Of a DNA stretch of 64,000 nt, positions 4,532 through 21,910 are shown one piece after another. Made by a program: the position numbers and the translations under genes. Below the pieces are notes generated by a model. The model ran no database searches, was not told where the DNA came from, and worked only from the letters and a program-made list of their open reading frames with translations. Position 1 is the stretch's first letter. Each line of letters begins with the position of its first letter. The stretch covers positions 9,080-73,079 of the forward strand of contig JAUSMR010000012.1 in assembly GCA_030645955.1 (NCBI GenBank), read 5' to 3'. The stretch is from Gallionella sp. Lineage in GTDB: Bacteria; Pseudomonadota; Gammaproteobacteria; Burkholderiales; Gallionellaceae.

Positions 4532-5173
4532 ATGAGAATCGGCGTTGTTGCCTGCGACATAATGAAGCTCGAGCTGGACAAGCTATTAAGCAAAACCCCC
4601 GGTATCACCGAGGTCATTTATCTTGAGGCGGCGCTCCACTGCTATCCGAAAAAGATGAAAGCAACCATCCTGGAAAATGTGAATGCCATCAAGGATAAGG
4701 TGGATGTGATCTTCCTCGGCTACGGTTTTTGCAATGCGCTGGAAGGGATAGAGGACGAGATCGACATACCGGTAGTGATGCCACAGATGGATGACTGCAT
4801 CCAGATATTCATGACGCCACAAAAATATGGCGAAGCAATACGCAAAGAGGTCGGAACCTGGTTCATGAGTCCCGGCTGGGCAGAAATTGGGGTCGAAATG
4901 GTTATCAAGGAGAACCATCTGGACAGGGTCGTGAAATACGGCAAAGACCCGATGGAAATGGCCAAGAGACTTTTTACGCACTACCGGCGCGGACTCTTCA
5001 TCGATACCGGGGTGGGGAATGACGACTACTATATCGGCAAGTCGAACGAGTTTTGCGACGTCTTCTCGCTGACGCTGGAGAAGACGACGGGAACTTCCGC
5101 AGTGCTGAAAGAACACCTGGAAATAACCCAGAAGATCGCCGCAAAAGCGGCAACAGCGCGGGAAAAGGCGTAA
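4532..5173 (+). CDS. DUF1638 domain protein, copy 1
   Basis: A 213-aa soluble protein beginning MRIGVVACDIMKLEL, with conserved Cys/Gly/Asp signatures (FLGYGFC, PQMDDCIQIF) typical of DUF1638, a family of unknown biochemistry that co-occurs with MtaA-like methyltransferases and RACE proteins. GGAGTGACCAACC lies just upstream of the ATG. It is the fourth gene of the corrinoid cluster, about 100 bp after the hydantoinase gene. A second copy, roughly 85% identical by eye, sits at 17774-18436 on the other strand beside a CobW GTPase. A corrinoid-linked role is inferred from context only. Confidence 0.85.
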   Translation: MRIGVVACDIMKLELDKLLSKTPGITEVIYLEAALHCYPKKMKATILENVNAIKDKVDVIFLGYGFCNALEGIEDEIDIPVVMPQMDDCIQIFMTPQKYGEAIRKEVGTWFMSPGWAEIGVEMVIKENHLDRVVKYGKDPMEMAKRLFTHYRRGLFIDTGVGNDDYYIGKSNEFCDVFSLTLEKTTGTSAVLKEHLEITQKIAAKAATAREKA

Positions 5174-7897: not shown

Positions 7898-7927
7898 CGG
7901 CCTTATGTGAAGCTTCACATAAGGCCG
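7898..7927. repeat. 30-bp perfect palindrome at RIT left end
   Basis: Centre between 7912 and 7913 (TTATGTGAAG then CTTCACATAA with matching flanks). Likely recombinase-binding or crossover region. Confidence 0.85.
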
Positions 7928-7955
7928 ATTATGCACAGTTCTCGATTATGTGAAG
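7923..7955 (+). repeat. RIT terminal inverted repeat, left
   Basis: 33 bp identical to the reverse complement of 11080-11112, from ggccgattatg to attatgtgaag. Confidence 0.9.
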
Positions 7956-8076
7956 TTTGGGATCGAATTGTGCTGAGAGGTAGGATGTAAGCGGCAAGGC
8001 AGGGTTTGATGCAAATGTAAGCTGGACATAATTTCTGCGGTAGTCTGAAGTAGTAGTCCCACTTCAGGAGACTATT

Positions 8077-9036
8077 ATGGCTCACACCACTACGCACCGT
8101 GCCGCGTCAGATGCACGGAAACCGACTGCATACACGGATCACATTACAGAGGAACTACGCCGCTACGAAGAGCACCTGCGCGATATGCGAGGGCTGGCAG
8201 AAGGTAGCTGCCGACAGCGGGCTCGCATCGTAGGACGTTTGCTTCATAAGAAGTTTGCCGGGCGTCCGGTCGATATTGCCGAACTGCGAGCAGAAGATGT
8301 GCGGCGTTTCCTTGCCGACCAGTTGGATGCCCGCCGAACCCCTTCCAACGCATTGCAACTGGCATCGGCATTGCGTAGCTACTTTCGTTATCGGACCACC
8401 TGTGGTGACCAAGTCGGCAAGCTGATTGCCGTCATCTCGAACCCGGTGCATTGGAAGCTGGCATCATTGCCGCGCGCCCTCAAGCCTGAAGAAGCCGAAC
8501 GCCTGCTGAATTCCTTCACTGCAAACTTGCGCTTGCCGAAACGTGGTTACGCAATTGTGCGTTGCGCATTGGACATGGGATTGAGGTCCGCCGAAATCGC
8601 TCATCTCATGATCAGCGATATTGACTGGCGTGCTGGCACGGTAATTCTGCGAGGGACGAAATCGCTGCGCCAGGACATCCTGCCATTGCCGATGGAAACT
8701 GGCCAGGCGCTGGCCGATTACCTGCAACATGAACGACCCGCCACCCGGAACCCTGCCATCTTCGTCCGGCAGAATGAAGGGCGCGACTACCCCATCACCT
8801 CCACGGCGATACAGAAGGTGATCAAGCGCGCCTGCCGTCGTGTAGGTTTGCCACATTCCAGCGCACACGCACTTCGGCATACCCTGGCGTGTCGCCTTGT
8901 TGATAGCGGCAGTTCGCTCAAGGAAGTCGCTGACCTGCTGCGTCACCGGTCGCTGAACACCACCCTGATTTACGCCAAGCTCGACACACCGAAGCTCTCG
9001 GCCGTTGCTCTGCCGTGGCCGGGGAGCAAATCATGA
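8077..9036 (+). CDS. Tyrosine recombinase A of RIT element
   Basis: A 319-aa tyrosine-type site-specific recombinase with an N-terminal SAM-like core-binding domain and a C-terminal catalytic domain. Catalytic residues seen: R in DMGLRSAEI, H-x-x-R in HALRHTLA, H/R in LLRHRSLNTT and the nucleophile Y in LIYAKLD. CAGGAGACTATT gives a good ribosome binding site. It opens a three-gene operon; its TGA overlaps the next ATG at 9033. Probably transcribed from the 121-bp leader between the left inverted repeat and the start. Confidence 0.9.
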   Translation: MAHTTTHRAASDARKPTAYTDHITEELRRYEEHLRDMRGLAEGSCRQRARIVGRLLHKKFAGRPVDIAELRAEDVRRFLADQLDARRTPSNALQLASALRSYFRYRTTCGDQVGKLIAVISNPVHWKLASLPRALKPEEAERLLNSFTANLRLPKRGYAIVRCALDMGLRSAEIAHLMISDIDWRAGTVILRGTKSLRQDILPLPMETGQALADYLQHERPATRNPAIFVRQNEGRDYPITSTAIQKVIKRACRRVGLPHSSAHALRHTLACRLVDSGSSLKEVADLLRHRSLNTTLIYAKLDTPKLSAVALPWPGSKS

Positions 9037-10007
9037 GTGCGCACATCAGCTTGCAGAGAAGGATCGATGACTATCTTGCGGAACGCCGTCGTCTTGGGTT
9101 CGTGTTGCGATCACGTGACACATTTCTGGCAGATTTTGCCAGCTATGTGGCCAGACGCCATCATCGTGGGCCACTGACAGTCGAACTTATGGCCGATTGG
9201 GTACGCCAAGGCAAAGATGGGCAAGGTTCGCCGGAAACATGGGTTCGCCGTCTAGGGAAGTTGCGATCATTTATCCGCTACCTGAAACAGTTCAAGCCGG
9301 ATACCGAGGTGCCAGACGAGTCTATCTTTGGACCGGAACCTGGTCGCGTGGCGCCGCATATTTACCATGAAGATGAGATCGTCGAATTGCTGGCGGCGGC
9401 TCGCCAGCTTGGGCCACACGGTAGTTTGCGTCCGATGACCTTCGAGACTTTGTTCGGTCTGATGGCATCAACCGGACTGCGGGTCTCTGAGGCGATTCAC
9501 TTGCGTGATGATGATGTCGATCTCAAGCATGGGATGCTGACCATCCGGCAAACCAAATTTGCTAAGTCTCGCCAGTTGCCTTTGCACCCGAGTACCGTTA
9601 CGGCGCTGAGGCTTTACCGCCGGCGGCGTACACGGTACGTTCCCACTACAGCTGACAGTTCATTCCTTATCGGTAGTCGTGGCCAGTGCCTTGGGCAACC
9701 GCTCGGGGAACGTCAGGCACATCGCGTCTTCAACTCGCTGCGCGTCAGTTTGGGCTGGACGAATCGCGGTGCACATGCGGCACCACGGCTGCATGACCTG
9801 CGCCACACCTTTGCCGTCAGGCGCATGTTGCTCTGGCATGCCGATGGCACCGACATCGACCAAATGATGCTGGCGTTATCGACCTACATGGGGCATGCCG
9901 AAATATTCTACACCTACTGGTATCTCTCGGCTGTCCCGGAATTGATGGCCATGGCCGGTGGGAAGTTCGAGCGTTTCGCCGATATTGTAGGAGGCAACGA
10001 TGAGTAA
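9033..10007 (+). CDS. Tyrosine recombinase B of RIT element
   Basis: A 324-aa tyrosine recombinase. Catalytic residues seen: R in STGLRVSEAI, H-x-x-R in RLHDLRHTFA, H in YMGHAEIFYTYWYLS and a nearby Tyr. The insertion between the HxxR box and the Tyr box (LLWHADGTDIDQMML) is longer than in ordinary XerC/D proteins and fits RIT middle recombinases. ATG 9033 overlaps the previous stop; the upstream GTG at 9015 is less likely. Overlaps the third gene by 8 nt. Confidence 0.9.
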   Translation: MSAHISLQRRIDDYLAERRRLGFVLRSRDTFLADFASYVARRHHRGPLTVELMADWVRQGKDGQGSPETWVRRLGKLRSFIRYLKQFKPDTEVPDESIFGPEPGRVAPHIYHEDEIVELLAAARQLGPHGSLRPMTFETLFGLMASTGLRVSEAIHLRDDDVDLKHGMLTIRQTKFAKSRQLPLHPSTVTALRLYRRRRTRYVPTTADSSFLIGSRGQCLGQPLGERQAHRVFNSLRVSLGWTNRGAHAAPRLHDLRHTFAVRRMLLWHADGTDIDQMMLALSTYMGHAEIFYTYWYLSAVPELMAMAGGKFERFADIVGGNDE

Positions 10008-11013
10008 GCAAACAAAGTCACCCCCTTCATTTGCCGCGCTCGTCCAAGCCTACTTTGCCGAGTACCTGGTTCAGCAGCGTGCGCTCAGCGCGCAGACCAT
10101 CGCCGCCTATCGCGATGGCTTCGTGCTCTTCCTCGGCTTTGCAGAATCTCGCCTTGGCAAGTCACCGACCGCAATAACCTTGGCTGACATTACGCCAGAT
10201 ATGATCATGGCCTTCCTCGATCATCTGGAACGTCAGCGACATAATTCCGTCCGCAGCCGCAATGCACGGCTGGCGGCGTTGAGGTCATTCCTGAAGTTCG
10301 CAGCGCACCGCGATGTGGCATCACTACAGGTGATCGAACGCGCGTTGGGAGTTCCGGTAAAACGGTTCGAGCGCCCGATGTTCGGCTATTTATCACGCGA
10401 GGAAATGCAGGCGGTGATCGGCAACCCGGATGAATCATGGGTAAGTCAGCGGGATCATGTTCTGTTCCTGCTGATGTACAACACCGGTGCGCGCGTGTCG
10501 GAGATCACGGGTGTCAAAGTCAGTGAGGTGGTGCTTGATGAGGGTTCCGCCTGCGTTCATCTGCATGGCAAGGGCCGCAAGCAGCGCAGCGTTCCTCTGT
10601 GGCACTCGACCGTCAAGGTAGTCCGGGCATGGTTGAGGTTGAATCCGCAGTTCGATGCCGCATCACCGTTGTTGCCGAACCGTAGCGGACATGCGATGAC
10701 GCGAAACAATGTTACCCAAAGACTCGCATTGGCGGTGGTGGCAGCAACAGAGAACAACCCCGGCTTGGCAAAGCGACGAATCTCTCCACATACGATCCGT
10801 CACACAACTGCGATGCATCTATTGCAGGCCGGCGTAGACATCAGCGTCATCGCCCTTTGGCTCGGTCATGAAAGTCCAGTCACCACGCATCACTACGTCG
10901 AGGCTGATCTGACTATGAAGGAGCATGCCTTGTCCATGCTTCACGAACCGGAGGCCAAGCCTCATCGCTACACGGCTCCCGACTCTCTGATCGACTTCCT
11001 GAAGAGGCTGTAA
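10000..11013 (+). CDS. Tyrosine recombinase C of RIT element
   Basis: A 337-aa recombinase close to XerC/XerD in layout. Catalytic residues seen: R in NTGARVSEI, K in HGKGRKQR, H-x-x-R in HTIRHTTA, H in WLGHESPVTT and Y in HHYVEADL. GGAGG at 9990-9994 precedes ATG 10000. The stop is directly followed by a TTATGTGAAG motif that begins the right-end repeat structure. Confidence 0.9.
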   Translation: MSKQTKSPPSFAALVQAYFAEYLVQQRALSAQTIAAYRDGFVLFLGFAESRLGKSPTAITLADITPDMIMAFLDHLERQRHNSVRSRNARLAALRSFLKFAAHRDVASLQVIERALGVPVKRFERPMFGYLSREEMQAVIGNPDESWVSQRDHVLFLLMYNTGARVSEITGVKVSEVVLDEGSACVHLHGKGRKQRSVPLWHSTVKVVRAWLRLNPQFDAASPLLPNRSGHAMTRNNVTQRLALAVVAATENNPGLAKRRISPHTIRHTTAMHLLQAGVDISVIALWLGHESPVTTHHYVEADLTMKEHALSMLHEPEAKPHRYTAPDSLIDFLKRL

Positions 11014-11017
11014 TTAT

Positions 11018-11080
11018 GTGAAGGTCGGAATTTGCGCTAGTCACCAGCAGTCTGCGCTTGGTGCAGATTCCAACCTTCAC
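11018..11080. repeat. RIT right subterminal imperfect inverted repeat
   Basis: GTGAAGGTCGGAAT at 11018 faces ATTCCAACCTTCAC ending at 11080 (one mismatch), enclosing a loop of about 35 bp next to the terminal repeat. A candidate recombinase-binding site. Confidence 0.65.
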
Positions 11081-11112
11081 TTCACATAATCGAGAACTGT
11101 GCATAATCGGCC
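11080..11112 (-). repeat. RIT terminal inverted repeat, right
   Basis: 33 bp, reverse complement of 7923-7955 without mismatch. Confidence 0.9.
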
Positions 11113-11328: not shown

Positions 11329-11667
11329 ATGCCTTTAGAAATCGCTTTTGCCGAAAAGTCAGACCGACAACTCTGCGAAAATGAGGCTATAGCAGTGCGC
11401 AAACTTGGGACCAAGGTGGCTGATAAGCTTAAACGGCGGCTGGCTGACTTGCGTGCCGCTACAAGCGTAAAGGATATTGTGGCTGGTAAACCTGAGGTGC
11501 TCTTTGGAAAGTATAAGCATCAAATTGCAGTGGAGCTTTGTGACGGGTATTGTTTGGTTTTTTGCGCCAATCACAACACGAATCCTTTACTCGAGTCGGA
11601 TGAACTAGATTGGTCTCGTGTTAGTCGCATCAAAATTCTACGGATCGAAAATCTTTATGGTAAATAA
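11329..11667 (+). CDS. HigB/RelE-like toxin candidate
   Basis: A 112-aa protein with a basic N-terminal half (TKVADKLKRRLADLRAATSVKD) and a hydrophobic C-terminal half, resembling proteins annotated as plasmid-maintenance killer (HigB-like, RelE superfamily). No catalytic residue is diagnostic. Its stop overlaps by 11 nt the start of an HTH-ImmA/IrrE gene, the standard order toxin then antitoxin in HigBA-type pairs. No strong Shine-Dalgarno is seen before ATG 11329; the TTG three bases earlier is an alternative. The 216 bp between it and the RIT element hold no gene. Confidence 0.6.
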   Translation: MPLEIAFAEKSDRQLCENEAIAVRKLGTKVADKLKRRLADLRAATSVKDIVAGKPEVLFGKYKHQIAVELCDGYCLVFCANHNTNPLLESDELDWSRVSRIKILRIENLYGK

Positions 11668-12745
11668 CGACACATTTCTGCCCAACTGGATTTCGCCACC
11701 CGGTGAGACTATTTCCGACATTCTTGGAGAGATGAATTTATCTCTAGTCGAATTTGCGGACCAAATCGGTTATTCGCTGAATCAGGCAAAAGATTTGGTA
11801 CAAGGAAAAGCTCCTCTCACAAATGAATTGGCTGCACAGCTTGAGTACACACTAGGTGCCTCTGCTGAATTCTGGTTGAATCGAGAAACCCAATATCGAA
11901 CAGACGTTTCACGCCTTCGCAGCGAGCTATCGAGCCCAAATGACGAAAACTGGCTAAAAGAACTGCCGCTGAAGGACATGATCTCGTTTGGCTGGCTTAA
12001 TCCTGTAAACAACACCAAAGCAAAGGTGGCGGAATGTCTCCGGTTCTTTGGTGTGCCAAATGTTGCTGCATGGCGAGAAACATACCATAACGTTCTTGAA
12101 ACGGCTGCGTTCAGAAAATCGACTTCATTTGATTCGCAATCAGGCGCTGTTGCTGCTTGGCTTCGACAAGGAGTAATCGAGAGCGCATCATTAGATTGCA
12201 AGGCTTGGGACAGTGCGGATTTCGAAAGATCCCTTCAAGCCATTCGAACGCTGACACGCAAACGAGACCCCAATCTATTTATTCCAGAACTCCAAAAGAT
12301 TTGTGCGGAGGCCGGTGTGGCAGTGGTAGTTGCCCGTTTGCCATCAGGCTGCAGGGCAAGTGGAGCAACTCAATTCATATCGCCTAATAAGGCGCTTTTA
12401 TTGCTCAGTTTTCGGTATCTCACTGACGACCATTTCTGGTTTACCTTCTTTCATGAAGCAGGCCATCTTTTGCTTCATGGAAAAGATGATATGTTTTTGG
12501 AAGAGATGGGTCAGTGCTCAAACAACGAAGAGCATGAGGCCAACGAATTCGCAGCCAGCGTGCTTATTCCAGAGGGGTGCCAAACAGAGCTAGAAAATCT
12601 ACCTCTTGATGGTCGTGAAGTGATTCGGTTTGCAAGAAAAATAGGTGTGTCACCAGGCATCGTTGTTGGGCAACTCCAACACCGCGGGTTAATCACACCA
12701 AAACAACTTAATAACCTTAAAACGCGCTTTAGTTGGTCTGAATAA
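11657..12745 (+). CDS. HTH (HigA-like) plus ImmA/IrrE metallopeptidase protein
   Basis: A 362-aa protein. The N-terminal 80 residues are a HigA/XRE-type helix-turn-helix (SLVEFADQIGYSLNQAKDLV ... ALTGASAEFWLN-like segment). The C-terminal part is an ImmA/IrrE (M78/COG2856) peptidase with zinc motif HEAGH at about residue 266 and a downstream Glu in EHEANEFAASVLIP. Such proteins act as regulators that cut a repressor, or as antitoxins with built-in protease. ATG 11657 is chosen by overlap with the upstream stop. It ends 2 bp from the convergent pyrophosphorylase-like gene. Confidence 0.8.
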   Translation: MVNNDTFLPNWISPPGETISDILGEMNLSLVEFADQIGYSLNQAKDLVQGKAPLTNELAAQLEYTLGASAEFWLNRETQYRTDVSRLRSELSSPNDENWLKELPLKDMISFGWLNPVNNTKAKVAECLRFFGVPNVAAWRETYHNVLETAAFRKSTSFDSQSGAVAAWLRQGVIESASLDCKAWDSADFERSLQAIRTLTRKRDPNLFIPELQKICAEAGVAVVVARLPSGCRASGATQFISPNKALLLLSFRYLTDDHFWFTFFHEAGHLLLHGKDDMFLEEMGQCSNNEEHEANEFAASVLIPEGCQTELENLPLDGREVIRFARKIGVSPGIVVGQLQHRGLITPKQLNNLKTRFSWSE

Positions 12746-12747
12746 TA

Positions 12748-13692
12748 TTAGCCGCGAAATGATTTGAATTCTTCGGGACTCTTTTGCCAATTGCAAAGAG
12801 CATCCTCCATCGCTTGCATGCCAACAACAAGATACCCTTCAAGTTGAACTAATCTCGCATCAAGTTCAGAACAACTAAGGTTTGCTTTCGGATTTCCAGT
12901 AAATAGCAGTTTTGCGCCAGTGAGTGGTCCAGTTGCCTTATCCATATAAGCGGAACCTGGCTCAATTGGAGCTAATCCTAATTTTCCAACCATAGTTAGA
13001 TAATCAAACTTTGCGGTTCTTCCAAATGAAGTCACCGCATCCATTGATCGATAGAGATAGTGAAACATTGCACGTGGGCTACCATCGGTTTTTGTGGCTG
13101 CATCCTGAAGGAGCAAATCGTGAGATCCGAATTGGTTAACCCAATTCACATAACTTTCGATAGCAGCCCCTGTTCCAGTTGCGGAATATGGGTGAAGACT
13201 CTGATATTTACGATGATTGCCGAAGCTGCGCTTAACTCCGTCCCCACCATTCAATGTGGTCAAATTTGCTGACAACCATTGACGAAATAAAGCTGGGTTA
13301 GCGCTGGTTTGCTTCCAATCCCAAAATGTACCATCGCCTAATTTTCCGTAAATATCACGAACAAAACGCCACTTGGTGCGCAAATTCTTTCCAAAATGAA
13401 TGGAGAGAAACACTAACCAAAATGCTTCATCGCTATTGCCATTGCGATGGTTAAGCACTGCTGCCCGTTCTGGGTCAAATAGTTCACTGGATGGTTCGTT
13501 CCGTACATTACTAATGTCTCGTAATGCAATGCTGGTGTAATACCTGTTCCGGCGTAAGCTATCAATAAACTGTAGAACTAATGCTTGCCGAAATTTTGCA
13601 TCGCCGATGCCAGTAAGAATACGAACTTCCTTTTCGTATAACTTTAGACCAGTTTTGAGTTGTTGCTCTTTTAGTAAATCGTGTTTGTTCAT
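12748..13692 (-). CDS. Alpha-glutamyl/putrescinyl thymine pyrophosphorylase clade 3-like protein
   Basis: A 314-aa all-alpha-looking protein. The block DEAFWLVFLSIHFGKN ... RDIYGKLGDGTFWDWKQTS is the hallmark of the clade 3 alpha-GPT pyrophosphorylase family, relatives of phage enzymes that process hypermodified pyrimidines (5-hydroxymethyl-dU derived) in DNA. The bacterial clade 3 function is not established. ATG at 13692 overlaps the stop of the upstream gene (ATGA), so the 11-codon extension is rejected. Last gene of a minus-strand set with a UDG-like and a thymidylate-synthase-like gene, supporting a joint role in nucleotide or DNA base modification. Family recognised from memory of its signature; moderate confidence. 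Confidence 0.65.
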   Translation of the reverse strand: MNKHDLLKEQQLKTGLKLYEKEVRILTGIGDAKFRQALVLQFIDSLRRNRYYTSIALRDISNVRNEPSSELFDPERAAVLNHRNGNSDEAFWLVFLSIHFGKNLRTKWRFVRDIYGKLGDGTFWDWKQTSANPALFRQWLSANLTTLNGGDGVKRSFGNHRKYQSLHPYSATGTGAAIESYVNWVNQFGSHDLLLQDAATKTDGSPRAMFHYLYRSMDAVTSFGRTAKFDYLTMVGKLGLAPIEPGSAYMDKATGPLTGAKLLFTGNPKANLSCSELDARLVQLEGYLVVGMQAMEDALCNWQKSPEEFKSFRG

Positions 13693-14489
13693 GCGAACAA
13701 TTCCTCGACAGATTGTGTAACCCAATTCCGAATCGAAGTTTTGACTTGGGTAGTTACACCGAAGCTACTTTGGATATTGTGGTTAAATCCAAGTATATGA
13801 ACTTTCCGATTGAGTCGAACACCGGCAACTTCGTTGATTGTTCCTCTATATGAAAACCCCTTTACGCCGTCTCCAGCCTTTCTTGGGAGCGTCCAATCCG
13901 AAATCGTATCTCTTTCAAAACTTACTCCAGTGATCCTTTGCAAATTTTCTATGACAGTTTTTCCATTGAGAATGAGAACGCGAACTGGAGAATCTTTAAG
14001 TAAAAGGCCAAGAGTATCTCCAGCAAAGTCCAAAAGTAATGTTCGTTGCTGAGAAGTGAGCTCTGTCCACTTACATGCTGTTGCATAAGGAATGAGGTCA
14101 AGGTGGCATGCCTTGATTGAATCATCGTAGTAGGAAGCTCTTGTACCAGAAATAATTTTGTCGAGACCTTTAAACCAGCCGTCGTATGGATTTTGATGAA
14201 AATATCGACTACAGGATTCCAATATCAATTTTCGATGATGTACATTTGTATCAGACCACTTTCTAATGCCAAGTGATTTAAGCGTGTGGAAACGACGAAA
14301 GCTACCATCAAGTTCTTTACCGTTTATATCAACAAATTCTCGATTACTTGGGTTCAGACCAAGTGTGGCTATTGTTGAACATGTTAAGTCACCAAAGGAT
14401 GGGATAGGGCTACTCCACGGTATAACTTGAGCTTTTGATAGAGCTTTGTTATCTAACCGTTCTAGAAGCGATGTCAGCGTGGTATGCAT
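13689..14489 (-). CDS. Uracil-DNA glycosylase-superfamily-like protein
   Basis: A 266-aa protein. IATLGLNPSNREFVD resembles UDG motif 1 (G-x-N-P/S), LDLIPYATACKW and VRVLILNGKTVIENL match the core strands of the fold, and VHILGFNHNIQSS may supply the C-terminal His motif. Catalysis cannot be concluded: motif 1 lacks a clear water-activating Asp immediately after GLNPS, although E and D follow. It could excise or sense a modified pyrimidine. Eight bases separate it from the thymidylate-synthase-like gene, and its stop overlaps the pyrophosphorylase-like start. Confidence 0.55.
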   Translation of the reverse strand: MHTTLTSLLERLDNKALSKAQVIPWSSPIPSFGDLTCSTIATLGLNPSNREFVDINGKELDGSFRRFHTLKSLGIRKWSDTNVHHRKLILESCSRYFHQNPYDGWFKGLDKIISGTRASYYDDSIKACHLDLIPYATACKWTELTSQQRTLLLDFAGDTLGLLLKDSPVRVLILNGKTVIENLQRITGVSFERDTISDWTLPRKAGDGVKGFSYRGTINEVAGVRLNRKVHILGFNHNIQSSFGVTTQVKTSIRNWVTQSVEELFA

Positions 14490-14497
14490 TAATTTCT

Positions 14498-15499
14498 CTA
14501 GGGTTGGTCAACAAACAACTTCTTCTGTTCAGGGGTATTGCTCTTGGCAAGTTTGGCCGCATGTCGTTTATTAATGTATGGATTGTAGATAGATGATGAC
14601 ATTTTCTTCTTGATTTGTGTCGCTCTACTGATGGTCTCTCTACTGTTTGTGAATTGAAAAATTTGAAGAATGCGAACCAAGTCAGCCCAATACGGCGCCA
14701 ACTTGAGTGCTTCAGTGTCGATTTCTTTTCCGCTACGAATTACAGACTCTGCTCTGAGAAGTTTTGTAAGTGCAGGCCACGGATTGCCGAAAGGCATAGG
14801 TGGCATCGAGACTTTAGATTGCCAACCTTCATCAAGATATTGTTGAGCGCTATTTCTGTTTTCATCATACATGTGGAGGCTTCCAACGGCGTGCTTATAT
14901 GATCCAAGCTCTACCCCGAGTGAACGCGCGATGATTTCCTGGAGCATAGTAAATGCAAATATGTCATGCGGTAGCCCGATGAACACGTCGTTTGATCGCA
15001 TGTTGGTAAACATATGTAAACGACCTTTGCGAATCATGAATTGCATAGTGCAAGTGCAAGGTATGTCTTTGTGCTCTTCAATAATGTCTGCCGCATCAAA
15101 TAGCTGTATGACAGCTTGCCTCGACTCGCTCTTCTTCTCCAATATTTTAATTATGTTTTTGATCTGATGATTGCCATCTTTGCTACACATTCGAGGACCA
15201 TAGCCGCCATAAATGGTTTTGCCGTCGTCAGAATGTTTAATGTACTCAGGCAAATAGTAACTAATAAAACTGACACTATTCGTGCCTGCCAAATACCAAA
15301 GTAGTTCACCCAAACAGCTAAAGACTGTCCCCTTTTTCTCAGTTCTGCTTAGGCGGGCGCGAGGATCGGAAATATTGAGCAAAACTCCAATCAATTCCGT
15401 TGCGGGCCCTTTAGTGGGCACAATGTGATTTTTGCTCTTGAGTAATTTCTCGTAAATACGCCTTAACAGATCATCTAGTGTGGGCGCAGATATGTACAT
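14498..15499 (-). CDS. Thymidylate synthase-fold nucleotide hydroxymethylase/methylase candidate
   Basis: A 333-aa member of the thymidylate synthase superfamily. The catalytic Cys is C148 in IPCTCTMQF (PCH in ThyA), followed by RSNDVFIGLPHDIFAFTML and the sugar-binding GSLHMYDEN. In ThyA the segment reads GLPFNIASY; the Asn that selects dUMP is here Asp (D179), the change found in T4 dCMP hydroxymethylase and known to shift specificity to dCMP. His after the catalytic Cys is Thr. This predicts a cytidylate (hydroxy)methylase rather than housekeeping ThyA. It is the second gene of the DUF4031/TS/UDG-like/pyrophosphorylase set and has an extra basic C-terminal tail. Confidence 0.75.
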   Translation of the reverse strand: MYISAPTLDDLLRRIYEKLLKSKNHIVPTKGPATELIGVLLNISDPRARLSRTEKKGTVFSCLGELLWYLAGTNSVSFISYYLPEYIKHSDDGKTIYGGYGPRMCSKDGNHQIKNIIKILEKKSESRQAVIQLFDAADIIEEHKDIPCTCTMQFMIRKGRLHMFTNMRSNDVFIGLPHDIFAFTMLQEIIARSLGVELGSYKHAVGSLHMYDENRNSAQQYLDEGWQSKVSMPPMPFGNPWPALTKLLRAESVIRSGKEIDTEALKLAPYWADLVRILQIFQFTNSRETISRATQIKKKMSSSIYNPYINKRHAAKLAKSNTPEQKKLFVDQP

Positions 15500-15608
15500 T
15501 TATAGCTCAGACTGGAAACAGGAAGGATTGCAACATGTACAGTCTTGCATCTTATGCCGGCAATGCATTCTAAGGTAATGTAATGTGCACCATAACGTCA
15601 TATGTAGC

Positions 15609-15929
15609 TTATGACCAAGAATAACTAAAGAAGGAAAGCTGTTCCGGCTGAGAGCTTACCTGCTTATGTAGTAATAACTCTGTTTTTAGGGTGCGCGCGC
15701 ACGTAATAATTTCTGCTCTACTCCCTTCTATTGCGCCCATAGAAAGTGCGATTTGCCGAACTTCCAAAGTTACGTCGTAGTGCGGATATGATGCCGTATG
15801 TTGAAACCAGTTTCTCCGCAAACCTAATTTTTTCGCGAATTCATGCAATTCCTCGATGGAATCGGCAAGCAAGTGACACCAAAGTCTGCCACGCCACTTC
15901 ACCCTTGCATTGTCAACGTATACGGCCAT
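15609..15929 (-). CDS. DUF4031 domain protein
   Basis: A 106-aa protein starting MAVYVDNARVKWRGRLWCHL with HTASYPHYDVT further on, the DUF4031 signature. Function is unknown; conserved His, Asp and Cys residues suggest a small enzyme. It lies 109 bp upstream of the thymidylate-synthase-like gene on the same strand and may begin that transcription unit. The intervening 109 bp contain no other gene. Confidence 0.75.
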   Translation of the reverse strand: MAVYVDNARVKWRGRLWCHLLADSIEELHEFAKKLGLRRNWFQHTASYPHYDVTLEVRQIALSMGAIEGSRAEIITCARTLKTELLLHKQVSSQPEQLSFFSYSWS

Positions 15930-17773: not shown

Positions 17774-18436
17774 TTATTTGGTGCTTGGGGTTTTTGACTC
17801 CGTTGCCCGCGCTGCTGCCGCCTGTGCGGCGATCTTCTGGGCTTTTTCCAGATGCTCTTCGAGCACGGCGGATGTTCCCGTTGTCTTCTCCAGCGTCAGC
17901 GAGAAGATGTCGCAAACCTCGTTTGCCTTGCCGATATAGTAGTCGTCGTTTCCCACCCCGGTGTCGATGTAAAGCCCGGTGCGAAAAGCAGACATAATTC
18001 TTTTGGCCATTTCTATCGGGTCTTTGCCGTATTTCACAACCCTGTCCAGATGGTTTCCCTTGATGACCATTTCGGCCCCGATCTCCGCCCAGCCGGGACT
18101 CATGAACCACGTCCCTATTTCTTTGCGGACTGCCTCGCGATGTTTTTCCGGCGTCATGAATATCTGGATGCAGTCATCCATCTGTGGCATCACCACCGGG
18201 ATGTCGATCTCGTCCTCTATCCCTTTCAGCGATTGGCAATAACCGTAGCCGAGGAAGATCACATCCACCTTATCCTTGAGGGCCTTCACCTTTTCCAGGA
18301 CGGTCTCTTTCATCTTTTTCGGACTGCTGTGGAGCGCCGCCTCAAGATAAATGATCTCGGTGATACCGGGAGTTTTACTCAATAGCTTGTCCAGCTCAAG
18401 CTTCATGATGTCACATGCAACAACGCCGATTCTCAA
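17774..18436 (-). CDS. DUF1638 domain protein, copy 2
   Basis: A 220-aa paralogue of the protein at 4532-5173, with the same MRIGVVACDIMKLEL start and PQMDDCIQIF core; differences are scattered, with a distinct C-terminus (SKTPSTK). Duplicate DUF1638 genes about 13 kb apart and in opposite orientation frame the mobile/defence block at 6.4-16.4 kb, suggesting an older duplication or that the corrinoid locus was split by insertion. Function unknown; corrinoid association inferred from the first copy. Confidence 0.85.
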   Translation of the reverse strand: MRIGVVACDIMKLELDKLLSKTPGITEIIYLEAALHSSPKKMKETVLEKVKALKDKVDVIFLGYGYCQSLKGIEDEIDIPVVMPQMDDCIQIFMTPEKHREAVRKEIGTWFMSPGWAEIGAEMVIKGNHLDRVVKYGKDPIEMAKRIMSAFRTGLYIDTGVGNDDYYIGKANEVCDIFSLTLEKTTGTSAVLEEHLEKAQKIAAQAAAARATESKTPSTK

Positions 18437-18860: not shown

Positions 18861-19231
18861 TTTTGCTGCCGTATTGGTTCCTGGTTGGCTCGCCGTAACG
18901 CCGTATTTATCTTCTTGTTGGAAGGTGGATCGGGTCTGACGGCCAGCGTGTAGCTGACCTGATTCGAGTGCGACGGAATGTACCGTATCAAAGCGCTGCC
19001 AGCGAGCAGGTCAGCAGATCCTATGAGGTGCGAGGCTCCAACCGTTCGCGACGAATCAGTCGCCCAATCGAGCTGCCGGAGCTTTTCAATACGCGCGAAT
19101 CCCGTTACGGAGTTTGGCGTAGACGTCATCCTATCTGTCTTAACTTCGCGAGTTCTGGCTGTGCCCTTTCTAATAATTAACAGGGGGAAGCCATGTCTCA
19201 TCTTGAAAAATTCGATGCCGTCATTCACGAC
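18861..19231 (+). repeat. ~370-bp long repeat, left copy (inverted copy at 63322-63690)
   Basis: About 90% identical by eye to the reverse complement of 63322-63690. It includes the ribosome binding site (cagggggaagcc), ATG and first 13 codons of the rhodanese gene at 19193. Both strands are open over long parts, but no known protein was recognised. Confidence 0.8.
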
Positions 19232-21910
19232 AAAATCGGAACCGCAGCAAAACCAACTTTAACCACTCCTTTTATCAGGCTGTTTGCTGACATAAAGAAA
19301 CTGGTTGGGGGCCTTGTTTTCCTGTTTGCCGGGGTACTCGTTCTTGCCTCGTGCGGAAGTACGACCACCACTACCAGCACCGCGACTGCCTACCCCAATG
19401 CCACTCTGCTGGTAAGCGGCGCAGCGCTGAATGTCAATGCAACGAATCAGGTGATTATAGACACCCGAAGCGCGACCCTTTACGCCGCCGGTCACATCAC
19501 AAACGCCATCAATATGCCCCCCTCGGCGCTTGACACCACCGCCACCTCGTTTGAGCTTAACACCCCATCCGCGGCCGCAGCCGTTCTCAGTGCAGCCGGT
19601 GTTTCCAATACCACAAACATCGTCCTGTACGATGCCGATGTTTATGCCAACGTGGGACGGGTATTCTGGGCGCTGGAATATCTGGGCGCCACAAATGTCC
19701 AGGTTCTTGATGGCGGATACACCAAGTGGGTTGCCGATGGCCGCACGGTGGTTACCACCCCCACCACGCTGGCGGCAGCGACATTTACGCCTACTGTGGA
19801 TGCCACCAGGCTCGCCACGATGGCGCAGGTGGCCACTGCCTCTACCGACACCACCAACTACGCAATCGTCGACTCCCGTAATGCAGTTGATTTCGTCGCC
19901 GGACACATCCCCAATGCCATTAACGCCCTTGTCGGCGATTTCCTGAATAGTGACAAAACCGTATTGTCCTACACCAAACTCAAAAGTTTGCTGGATTTCA
20001 GGGGAATAACGGCCGGCAAGAGTGTCATTACGAACTGCTACGTTGGCTATCGCTCCGCACAGGAATATTTTATCCTCAGGCTGATGGGCTTCAACGTGAG
20101 CAATTACGACGGCTCCTGGACCGAATGGAACGCCGCCACCGCCTACCCCAATGCCGGTTTGCTGGTGGACAAGACGGCTCTGGCTGGCGCCGCAGTGATA
20201 ATCGATGCCAGAAGCGCGGCCCAATACGCCGCAGGCCACATCCCCGGCGCCATCAATGTCCTGAATAGCGACTACTGGACCGCCGGCACCGGGCTGAAAG
20301 CCACGGCAACCCTGGAAGCCCAGTTGGGAGCCGCCGGTATCACCCCCACCAGCAATATCGTGATTTATGACGACACCACCGCCTCATGGGGCGCCGCTGG
20401 ACGGCTCTTCTGGATGCTGGAATATCTGGGCAGCACCGATGTGCATATCCTCAACGGCGGCTGGGACAAATGGGTAGCCGATGTGGCAAACACACCGACA
20501 ACCACCGCGACGACACTGCCAACCGCGACCTTCACCGCTTCGGTGCAGCCTGCCAGGATTCTGTCAGGAGCTCAAATAGCAACCAAGCTTGGCAATGCCA
20601 ACTTTGCGGTCATTGACGCCCGCACTGACGAGGAATTTAACGGCTGGCAGCTTTATGGCGAAACCCGGGGCGGACACATCCCCGGCGCGTACAACATTCC
20701 GTACGCTACGTTCTACAATGCCGACAAGACTACGCTCAGCTATCAATCCCTGAAGCAGATGTTCGAGTCACGTGGCATTACCACAGGCAAGGAAGTAACC
20801 TCTTACTGCACCGCCGGTATCCGCAGCGGCCATGTCTATTTCTTGCTCCGCTTGATGGGCTACACACAGGCCTCCAACTATGACGCTTCCATGTTCGAAT
20901 GGAGCGCCGATGCCACCAAGCCAGAGGAGAAGGCAGCCAACTTCAAGGATCTGGTTTACCCGGCATGGGTGAACTCGTTGATTGCTTATCACGCACCAGG
21001 CAGCGTCACTGCGGCACCACCCGAGTACAAGGATGCTGGCGGAGTTACCTACGACCGTGCAACCCACAAGTATCTTATTCTTGAAAACCAGTGGGGAATA
21101 ACGGCGGATCAAACCACTGGCTACCTTGCCGGTCATATCCCCGGAGCCATACACTCCGACACCGATCCCTGGGAAAGCGGCGCAACTGACCCGCTCTACA
21201 GCCTGCTTCCCGATGCTACCCTTATAGCCCATGCTGGCGAATTGGGGATCACCCCCGACACCACCGTGGTCGTTTACAGCAATGATCTGGTGTTTGCCGC
21301 GCGGCTGTGGTGGCTGCTCAAATACCTTGGCGTAACTGATGTGCGGATGCTGAACGGCGGATATGCCGCCTGGACAGCCGCTGGCTATGCAGGGGAAACA
21401 ACCACCAACAACCCGGTGGCGACGACCTACACCGGCACGGTAAACGCGGCAGTGATCGCGACGACTGCCAATGTACTCTCAACCTACTACACCTCCGCAT
21501 CGACCAAGATGGTGGATGTGCGCAGCGATAAGGAGTATCTGGGAACATCGAGCGGTTACAGCTATCTGGACCTCATGGGGCGCATTCCGGGCGCGGTGTG
21601 GGCATACGATGGCAGCAGCGCATCCTACGCCGACGCCGATGGCACCCTCCGCGACTACACCCAAGTCAAGAGCATGTGGAGCACACTGGGAATCACATCC
21701 ACCGGTACCGCGACACTACTCGACAAGGATGCCGTGTTCTATTGCGGTGGCGGCTATCGCTCCGGACTGTCCTACTTCTACGCCCATCTCATGGGATACA
21801 CCAACATCCGCAACTACGCGGACGGATGGGCTGGCTGGAGCACCGTTCCTTCGGCATGGGGAACGACACAGGTACCGACAGGTCGGCCTGTGGCGAGCGG
21901 CACTCCTTAA
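19193..21910 (+). CDS. Lipoprotein with six rhodanese (sulfurtransferase) domains
   Basis: A 905-aa exported protein. After about 40 cytoplasmic-looking residues comes a membrane segment ending in a lipobox (VLVLASC-GS), then a Ser/Thr stretch and six rhodanese-like domains in three tandem pairs. The first domain of each pair lacks the active-site Cys (for example IIDARSAAQYAAGHIPGA), while the second has it: NCYVGYRSAQ, SYCTAGIRSGH and FYCGGGYRSGL. This mirrors thiosulfate/mercaptopyruvate sulfurtransferases, repeated three times. The TAYPNA segment starts two of the units, showing internal duplication. Predicted periplasmic persulfide handling. RBS GGGGGAA precedes ATG 19193, but RBS and the first 13 codons lie within a 370-bp repeat. 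Confidence 0.88.
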   Translation: MSHLEKFDAVIHDKIGTAAKPTLTTPFIRLFADIKKLVGGLVFLFAGVLVLASCGSTTTTTSTATAYPNATLLVSGAALNVNATNQVIIDTRSATLYAAGHITNAINMPPSALDTTATSFELNTPSAAAAVLSAAGVSNTTNIVLYDADVYANVGRVFWALEYLGATNVQVLDGGYTKWVADGRTVVTTPTTLAAATFTPTVDATRLATMAQVATASTDTTNYAIVDSRNAVDFVAGHIPNAINALVGDFLNSDKTVLSYTKLKSLLDFRGITAGKSVITNCYVGYRSAQEYFILRLMGFNVSNYDGSWTEWNAATAYPNAGLLVDKTALAGAAVIIDARSAAQYAAGHIPGAINVLNSDYWTAGTGLKATATLEAQLGAAGITPTSNIVIYDDTTASWGAAGRLFWMLEYLGSTDVHILNGGWDKWVADVANTPTTTATTLPTATFTASVQPARILSGAQIATKLGNANFAVIDARTDEEFNGWQLYGETRGGHIPGAYNIPYATFYNADKTTLSYQSLKQMFESRGITTGKEVTSYCTAGIRSGHVYFLLRLMGYTQASNYDASMFEWSADATKPEEKAANFKDLVYPAWVNSLIAYHAPGSVTAAPPEYKDAGGVTYDRATHKYLILENQWGITADQTTGYLAGHIPGAIHSDTDPWESGATDPLYSLLPDATLIAHAGELGITPDTTVVVYSNDLVFAARLWWLLKYLGVTDVRMLNGGYAAWTAAGYAGETTTNNPVATTYTGTVNAAVIATTANVLSTYYTSASTKMVDVRSDKEYLGTSSGYSYLDLMGRIPGAVWAYDGSSASYADADGTLRDYTQVKSMWSTLGITSTGTATLLDKDAVFYCGGGYRSGLSYFYAHLMGYTNIRNYADGWAGWSTVPSAWGTTQVPTGRPVASGTP

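Follow-up and report, generated by a model that had tools for sequence, protein, structure and literature searches.

A recurrent bacterial gene cassette joining a predicted dCMP hydroxymethylase and an aGPT-Pplase clade 3 protein to a HigB-like/HTH-metalloprotease pair

What is the function of a bacterial gene set that combines a thymidylate synthase (TS)-fold enzyme, a UDG-like protein and a clade 3 aGPT pyrophosphorylase? This question is raised by a locus in a stretch of 64,000 nucleotides from a Gallionella sp. contig (JAUSMR010000012.1, positions 9,080 to 73,079; hereafter the window). A preliminary description had combined the three genes and a neighboring DUF4031 gene into a candidate chromosomal module for base modification, possibly serving in defense. 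These genes are real, were correctly placed and belong to a conserved nucleotide/base-modification set whose members are linked far beyond chance. The core of this set consists of four genes, encoding the TS-fold enzyme, the aGPT-Pplase3 protein, which also belongs to the amino acid:DNA transferase (ADDT) family, a small HigB-like protein and a protein with a helix-turn-helix (HTH) and an M78 metalloprotease domain (HTH-M78), whereas the UDG-like gene is an optional component. The HigB-like/HTH-M78 pair was missing from the gene set first described and yet it is nearly constant.

An alignment of the UDG-like family was used to scan genome contigs and yielded 35 UDG-anchored loci from Pseudomonadota, Bacteroidota, Acidobacteriota, Myxococcota, Planctomycetota, Verrucomicrobiota, Chloroflexota, and Actinomycetota. 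An aGPT gene was present next to the UDG-like gene in all 35 and a TS-fold gene in 34, bearing out the expectation that the three genes co-occur elsewhere. The HTH-M78 gene was found in 32 of the 35 loci by single-sequence search and in 33 by profile, and the HigB-like gene in 31 and 32, respectively; the contigs of three loci (L002, L011, L035) stop in or just beyond the aGPT gene. A second set was anchored on aGPT and comprised 38 loci, namely 5 new genome loci, 7 plasmid loci (of eight plasmid records that matched aGPT, all but H8 were taken in) and 26 viral-contig loci, near-duplicates being kept in the counts of 26 and 38 (L105/L106, L107-L109, L117/L118, L123/L125, and L126/L127, which lie on one contig). 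Next to aGPT, TS was found in 36, M78 in 36, the HigB-like gene in 32 and UDG in 5 of these loci. Exceptions include L129, whose contig begins in the aGPT gene and shows no TS gene, and L110, whose contig stops with aGPT and shows no M78 gene, and 7 of the 9 HigB-like misses across both anchor sets fall at contig ends. Because the aGPT-anchored loci keep TS and M78 and only rarely contain UDG, it is UDG that depends on the core rather than the core on UDG. The presence of UDG takes 6 changes on the aGPT tree, at least 2 of which are forced by well-supported branches. DUF4031 was rejected as a core gene, as it lies near the unit in 8/35 genome loci and 4/26 viral loci, so that from the module first proposed TS and aGPT stand, UDG is optional and DUF4031 occasional. 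Full-length aGPT genes are rare, with 5 carriers among 1,520 genomes sampled from six phyla, a count that leaves out six centre genomes known to have aGPT and three weak partial matches (L041, L138, L139). One divergent aGPT-Pplase3 gene (L093, 1651-2559) stands alone, without TS or M78 neighbors, and split genes, possibly marking inactive copies, were seen for aGPT in L051 (a Leptospira plasmid), for TS in L004 and L114, and for M78 in L015.

Gene order is conserved as well. Of 47 genome and plasmid loci, counted after dropping L037, L040, and L042 (repeats of L009, L003, and L006) and L041, 40 have TS, UDG where present, and aGPT running in one direction and converging with M78. Among the remaining seven, three contigs stop before M78, L010 and L012 carry the pair in the same direction, in L028 a TS gene is missing and the UDG open reading frame (ORF) is short, and L039 contains aGPT alone. 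An exceptionless tail-to-tail rule was therefore rejected on account of L010 and L012. In the window, 2 nucleotides separate the end of the M78 gene from the stop of aGPT, tail to tail.

The TS-fold protein has as its closest sequence match in the PDB the CMP 5-hydroxymethylase MilA (2.5e-47). According to the papers on MilA (PMC5175136) and on the dCMP hydroxymethylase of T4 (PMC6400193), an Asp specifies cytosine and an Asn uracil, while Arg and Ser go with deoxyribose and Lys and Ala with ribose. In an alignment of 71 TS rows (the window, 45 genome or plasmid and 25 viral rows, some of them near-duplicates), Asp179, Ser169, Cys148, His209, and Tyr211 are invariant, so that the Asn of thymidylate synthase sensu stricto is found in none of the 71. 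Position 127 is Arg in 66 of 70 aligned rows and Lys in 4, with one gap, and Glu65 is present in 68 of 69, with one other letter and two gaps. The window protein carries the same letters as T4 gp42 at E65, Y100, R127, C148, S169, D179, H209, and Y211, whereas gp51 of phage PaMx11 carries Asn at position 179. The Cys nucleophile, the catalytic Glu, the cytosine-type Asp and the deoxy-type Arg and Ser are thus all in place, and on these residues the protein is very likely a dCMP hydroxymethylase. Because cytosine-type determinants are conserved in this family, the label 'thymidylate synthase' that cassette genes bear in the seven plasmid and three E. coli records examined is probably wrong. In its catalytic and cytosine-specifying residues the enzyme resembles T4 gp42 and MilA, and in its deoxy-type Arg and Ser it resembles the T4 enzyme, but it is host- or prophage-borne and lies outside a T4-type base replacement system or an antibiotic cluster.

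The pyrophosphorylase assignment of the preliminary description was confirmed by profile search, the window protein scoring 367.4 bits against the Pfam model of aGPT-Pplase clade 3 (gathering threshold 25) and 240.2 against ADDT (threshold 26.2). For its structure model, Foldseek alone gave no PDB match at E ≤ 0.001, a second look with VIA placed the phage glycinyltransferase PUGT first, with HhH-GPD glycosylases also near, and in a further fold comparison a phage ADDT model ranked first. The aGPT profile gave no links to PDB sequences. From its modeled fold and its family, it appears somewhat more probable than otherwise that the protein acts on a base in DNA. In phages, aGPT-Pplase proteins serve in thymidine hypermodification. 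The cassette shares with that pathway (PUGT being gp46 of PaMx11) a TS-fold enzyme and an ADDT-family protein of similar predicted fold, but it has the cytosine and not the uracil determinant, is bacterial or prophage-borne and contains a toxin-antitoxin (TA)-like pair. Furthermore, a phage-type 5hmdU DNA kinase (HMUDK_hel) was found in none of 14 host genomes, while phage PhiW-14, the positive control, was detected at 2.8e-27. Searches of 50,697 phage records with the UDG-like and aGPT proteins of the window gave no match, though viral contigs carry both, and the cassette DNA of L126 had no match among the same records either.

In the case of the UDG-like protein, the structure model and the profiles differ. 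The predicted structure of the window family shows a UDG fold, in support of the earlier assignment, but the profile check proposed for it failed, with a single one of 52 family members matching the Pfam UDG profile, at E 0.19. A profile of the family searched against the PDB gave 9 rows at E ≤ 10, the best at 0.23, and no glycosylase among them.

The HTH-M78 protein of the window scores 48.3 bits against the HigA model TIGR02607 (7e-13), barely above the cut-off of 47.7, and matches HigA chains in the PDB at 4e-11, so that the partner of the HigB-like protein does contain a HigA-type HTH. Similarity of the HigB-like protein itself to PF05015 (HigB-like_toxin) is weak, at E=0.02 for the window protein and with one match, at 0.0068, among 28 family members. 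The HExxH motif is invariant across 27 aligned M78 rows. A single clade unites 65 aGPT-linked M78 rows against 13 outside rows (support 100/99, the bootstrap being not fully settled), and M78 and aGPT distances are correlated over 63 loci (Mantel r 0.85, p 0.0005). The correlation between TS and aGPT is weaker (r 0.72, 67 loci), and shared transfer history inflates such correlations between cassette genes. Even so, the correlated distances favor M78 as an integral part. We regard the HigB/M78 pair as integral to the cassette with high confidence. M78 proteins of this type also occur outside the cassette: 15 of 299 Pseudomonadota genomes have a match better than E 1e-80, and 13 of these lack aGPT and supplied the outside rows of the tree. 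A shared operator in the promoters of TS and the HigB-like gene was rejected, as the longest common word over 33 loci was 11 nucleotides and mismatched pairs, used as control, reached 13.

Outside the cassette, relatives of the pair were seen in other settings. In L085 they lie inside a type I restriction-modification (RM) operon (hsdM-hsdM-[HigB-M78]-hsdS-hsdR), inspection of L087 shows the same arrangement, in which one HsdM was tested by profile, and in L088 a HigB/M78 pair lies between hsdM and the Gabija genes gajA-gajB; two neighbors of an outside M78 relative in L080 had no clear profile match. Pairs in these settings possibly guard modification systems.

Among known defense components, the best PADLOC model for HTH-M78 is PD-Lambda-2_B (4.5e-27), followed by capP at 5e-8. 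Both PD-lambda-2 and the cassette contain a HigB-like gene and a HigA-HTH/M78 peptidase, but in the cassette the partners are modification enzymes and the arrangement is mostly convergent. Among six window proteins only the B model of the three PD-lambda-2 components found a match, and the 28 HigB-like members matched no PD-Lambda-2 model at E ≤ 0.01. As reported in PMC9519451, overexpression of the peptidase-bearing component of PD-lambda-2 is toxic and the HigB-like component rescues; for this reason toxin and antitoxin roles are not assumed here. HTH and M78 peptidase domains also occur in CapH/CapP and the RosmerTA regulators, whereas in the cassette they are fused in one protein that is paired with a HigB-like gene.

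The word 'chromosomal' in the preliminary description holds for part of the loci, as the cassette lies on chromosomes and also on plasmids and on viral contigs, the latter mostly prophage-like. Plasmid hosts are Roseomonas, Pantoea, Neorhizobium, Arthrobacter, Agrobacterium, Rhizobium, and Leptospira. The Pantoea plasmid (L046, 94 kb) contains head-processing, ddrA and lysis genes and, judging from these names, may be a P1-like phage-plasmid. An IMG/VR contig of 118.6 kb (L126/L127) holds two copies of the cassette at a distance of about 93 kb, a spacing that would fit a circularly redundant genome of P1 size; in these two cases the cassette is apparent cargo of P1-like phage-plasmids. In the flanks of viral loci (70 ORFs), integrase and replication-initiation families are among the matches listed (25 of 82 families). 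In E. coli, 226 of 5,426 complete genomes contain, on their chromosomes, a TS-aGPT-M78 stretch with a coverage of 80% or more, its best places having at least 99% identity in 226 records, and a second cassette type has at least 99% identity in 4 records. The three E. coli loci examined all contain TS, aGPT, M78, and a HigB-like ORF; nearby are type I RM genes and a gene of MazG type, and one of the loci lies at tRNA-Leu beside an integrase. The MazG-like gene, of about 88 codons, adjoins the cassette in L142, L143, and L144 (E. coli) and in L123, L125, and L130 (viral) and could supply dCMP. As a core dCTP hydrolase it was rejected, being found in 3/26 viral and 0/47 genome or plasmid loci, several of the latter spanning just 4 kb or so.

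With PADLOC at E ≤ 1e-15, 135 ORFs flanking 15 loci gave type III RM mod and res, AbiEi, AbiEii, HamA, and DruM among the matches listed (25 of 84 families), whereas a control of 120 ORFs, drawn from arbitrary stretches in eight of the genomes, gave 14 families, including mad3, PDC-S01, RtcR-type, AriA, and Cas4, and none of the six just named. The comparison is one of 15 loci with eight genomes in which flank families are not tied to ORFs, and no flank ORF count or ratio is claimed because 25 of the 84 flank families are listed and the control was drawn differently. Among the core proteins themselves there is no methyltransferase or endonuclease family of an RM system.

What the analysis shows directly is which genes belong to the set and in what order, the folds predicted for their products, the conservation of active-site residues, correlated divergence, and locations that are mobile or rich in defense genes. 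A role of the cassette in phage conflict is probable, and the defense role suggested earlier is judged plausible. The more specific proposal, a mobile anti-phage cassette that makes 5-hydroxymethylcytosine (5hmC) under a HigB/M78 switch, is the most likely reading, with about an even chance in our estimate, and for any specific trigger or order of events our confidence is low. In a bolder version, to which we give clearly less than even odds, the cassette would embody an immune logic not described before: a host-made cytosine modification chain (5-hydroxymethyl-dCMP synthesis and an HhH-fold transferase, with or without a glycosylase) would be wired to a dedicated HigB/HTH-metalloprotease switch, and it would depend on the state of the modified base whether phage infection ends in tolerance or in death or destruction of DNA. 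In the main proposal, the TS-fold enzyme would convert dCMP and methylene-tetrahydrofolate to 5-hydroxymethyl-dCMP, a step for which its residues argue strongly; host or phage kinases are assumed to phosphorylate the product, part of which would enter DNA. There the aGPT-Pplase3/ADDT protein, by fold and family a candidate transferase on an HhH-GPD glycosylase scaffold, may act on 5hmC. The UDG-like protein, if present, may strip hydroxymethylated or incompletely processed bases and leave abasic sites, as its fold and the Brig3 precedent suggest. By analogy with PD-lambda-2 and CapP relatives, the HigB-like/HTH-metalloprotease pair could be the arm of control and killing that silences the set and fires once infection or damage upsets it.

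Two other explanations are each unlikely, though worth weighing. In the first, a 5hmC derivative would mark the cell's own DNA, the HigB/M78 pair would kill if the mark or its writer were lost, in the manner of guard nucleases of some RM systems, and UDG would remove unfinished 5hmC. Relatives of the pair inside a modification operon (hsdM...hsdS, L085) and the near-constant association of writer-like enzymes with a TA-like pair agree with this, but the core has neither a sequence-specific writer nor base-replacement machinery and UDG is absent from 33 of the 38 aGPT-anchored loci. In the second, which we consider similarly doubtful, 5hmdC would be made only upon infection and enter phage DNA, where aGPT, acting as a glycosylase, and UDG would create abasic sites that halt replication. 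The models of both proteins resemble glycosylase folds, the kinase of the transferase route was not found in the 14 host genomes and M78 has relatives of the CapP/IrrE type; however, the first fold match of aGPT is a transferase and a glycosylase Asp is not established in it.

Defense against phage modifications, with aGPT and UDG attacking phage-modified bases in the manner of Brig3-BapA and the TS-fold enzyme reversing phage 5-hydroxymethyl-dCMP or being auxiliary, is distinctly improbable. Phages with 5hmC and hypermodified pyrimidines do exist, and the UDG superfamily provides precedents, but a conserved hydroxymethylase would be superfluous and the same 33 loci lack UDG. Slightly less likely still is a selfish addiction module of mobile elements without immune benefit, which would account for the TA-like pair and for carriage on plasmids and prophages, but stabilization needs no hydroxymethylase or transferase and defense genes lie near several loci. 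Modification of thymine, as first proposed, by way of hypermodification from 5hmdUMP, would agree with the Pfam family name and the role of aGPT in phages but is very improbable in view of the cytosine Asp in 71/71 rows, the deoxyribose-type residues and a kinase found in 0/14 host genomes with a positive control.

In comparison with the cassette, the anti-phage glycosylases Brig1 (PMC11078745) and Brig3-BapA (PMC13160076) are precedents at the level of the UDG superfamily and of proposed action on modified cytosine, but the UDG-like protein of the cassette sits with the hydroxymethylase predicted to make the base. The prediction of a defense role for aGPT-Pplase is already in print, because Fig. 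6F of DefensePredictor (PMC13092281) names it among predicted, unvalidated defense domains, with UDG and HTH in the legend; in the same paper, the domains for which a defensive role was newly validated include a thymidylate synthase and a 5-hydroxymethyluracil kinase. The four-gene core and the cytosine assignment are absent from its accessible text. No description of the TS-aGPT-M78-HigB unit was found in the open-licence literature.

Features of the locus are collected in Table 1. Parts of the unit may reportedly be treated by Iyer 2013 and Burroughs 2015.

Table 1. Genes of the cassette and the adjoining accessory gene in the window.
Feature	Position	Strand	Basis
HigB-like small gene, 112 aa, first of the convergent pair	11329..11667	+	profile family; weak PF05015 similarity
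HTH-M78 (ImmA/IrrE-like) protein, HigA-like HTH and zinc metalloprotease domain	11657..12745	+	PF06114 1e-10
aGPT-Pplase clade 3/amino acid:DNA transferase (ADDT) family protein	12748..13692	-	Pfam
UDG-superfamily protein, optional component	13689..14489	-	predicted fold
TS-fold protein, predicted dCMP 5-hydroxymethylase	14498..15499	-	MilA match and residues
DUF4031 gene, occasional accessory	15609..15929	-	PF13223 5e-27

The GC content of the cassette is 44%, as compared with 53% for the whole window. Three tandem tyrosine recombinases (8077-11013) directly adjoin it and are bounded by 46-nucleotide inverted repeats, 89% complementary (7923-7968 and 11067-11112), so that the element spans 7923-11112; we take it to be a RIT-type element. 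Two similar ORFs in inverted orientation, at 4532-5173 (+) and 17774-18436 (-), enclose the recombinase element and the cassette, and their inverted arms of 180 nucleotides (5000-5179/17789-17968) are 87% complementary. A 905-aa ORF at 19193-21910 appears to resemble a multi-repeat rhodanese-type secreted protein. Searches of the window with Rfam at gathering thresholds and for tRNAs gave no matches.

Bacterial clade 3 aGPT pyrophosphorylases, named after a phage thymine pathway, are thus tied to a predicted dCMP hydroxymethylase and a TA-type HTH-metalloprotease pair, the label 'thymidylate synthase' is called into question, and the glycosylase is shown to be optional. As a near-identical TS-aGPT-M78 stretch occurs in E. 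coli, the question is open to study in a laboratory strain. If the proposal is true, bacteria would themselves make 5hmC as part of immunity.

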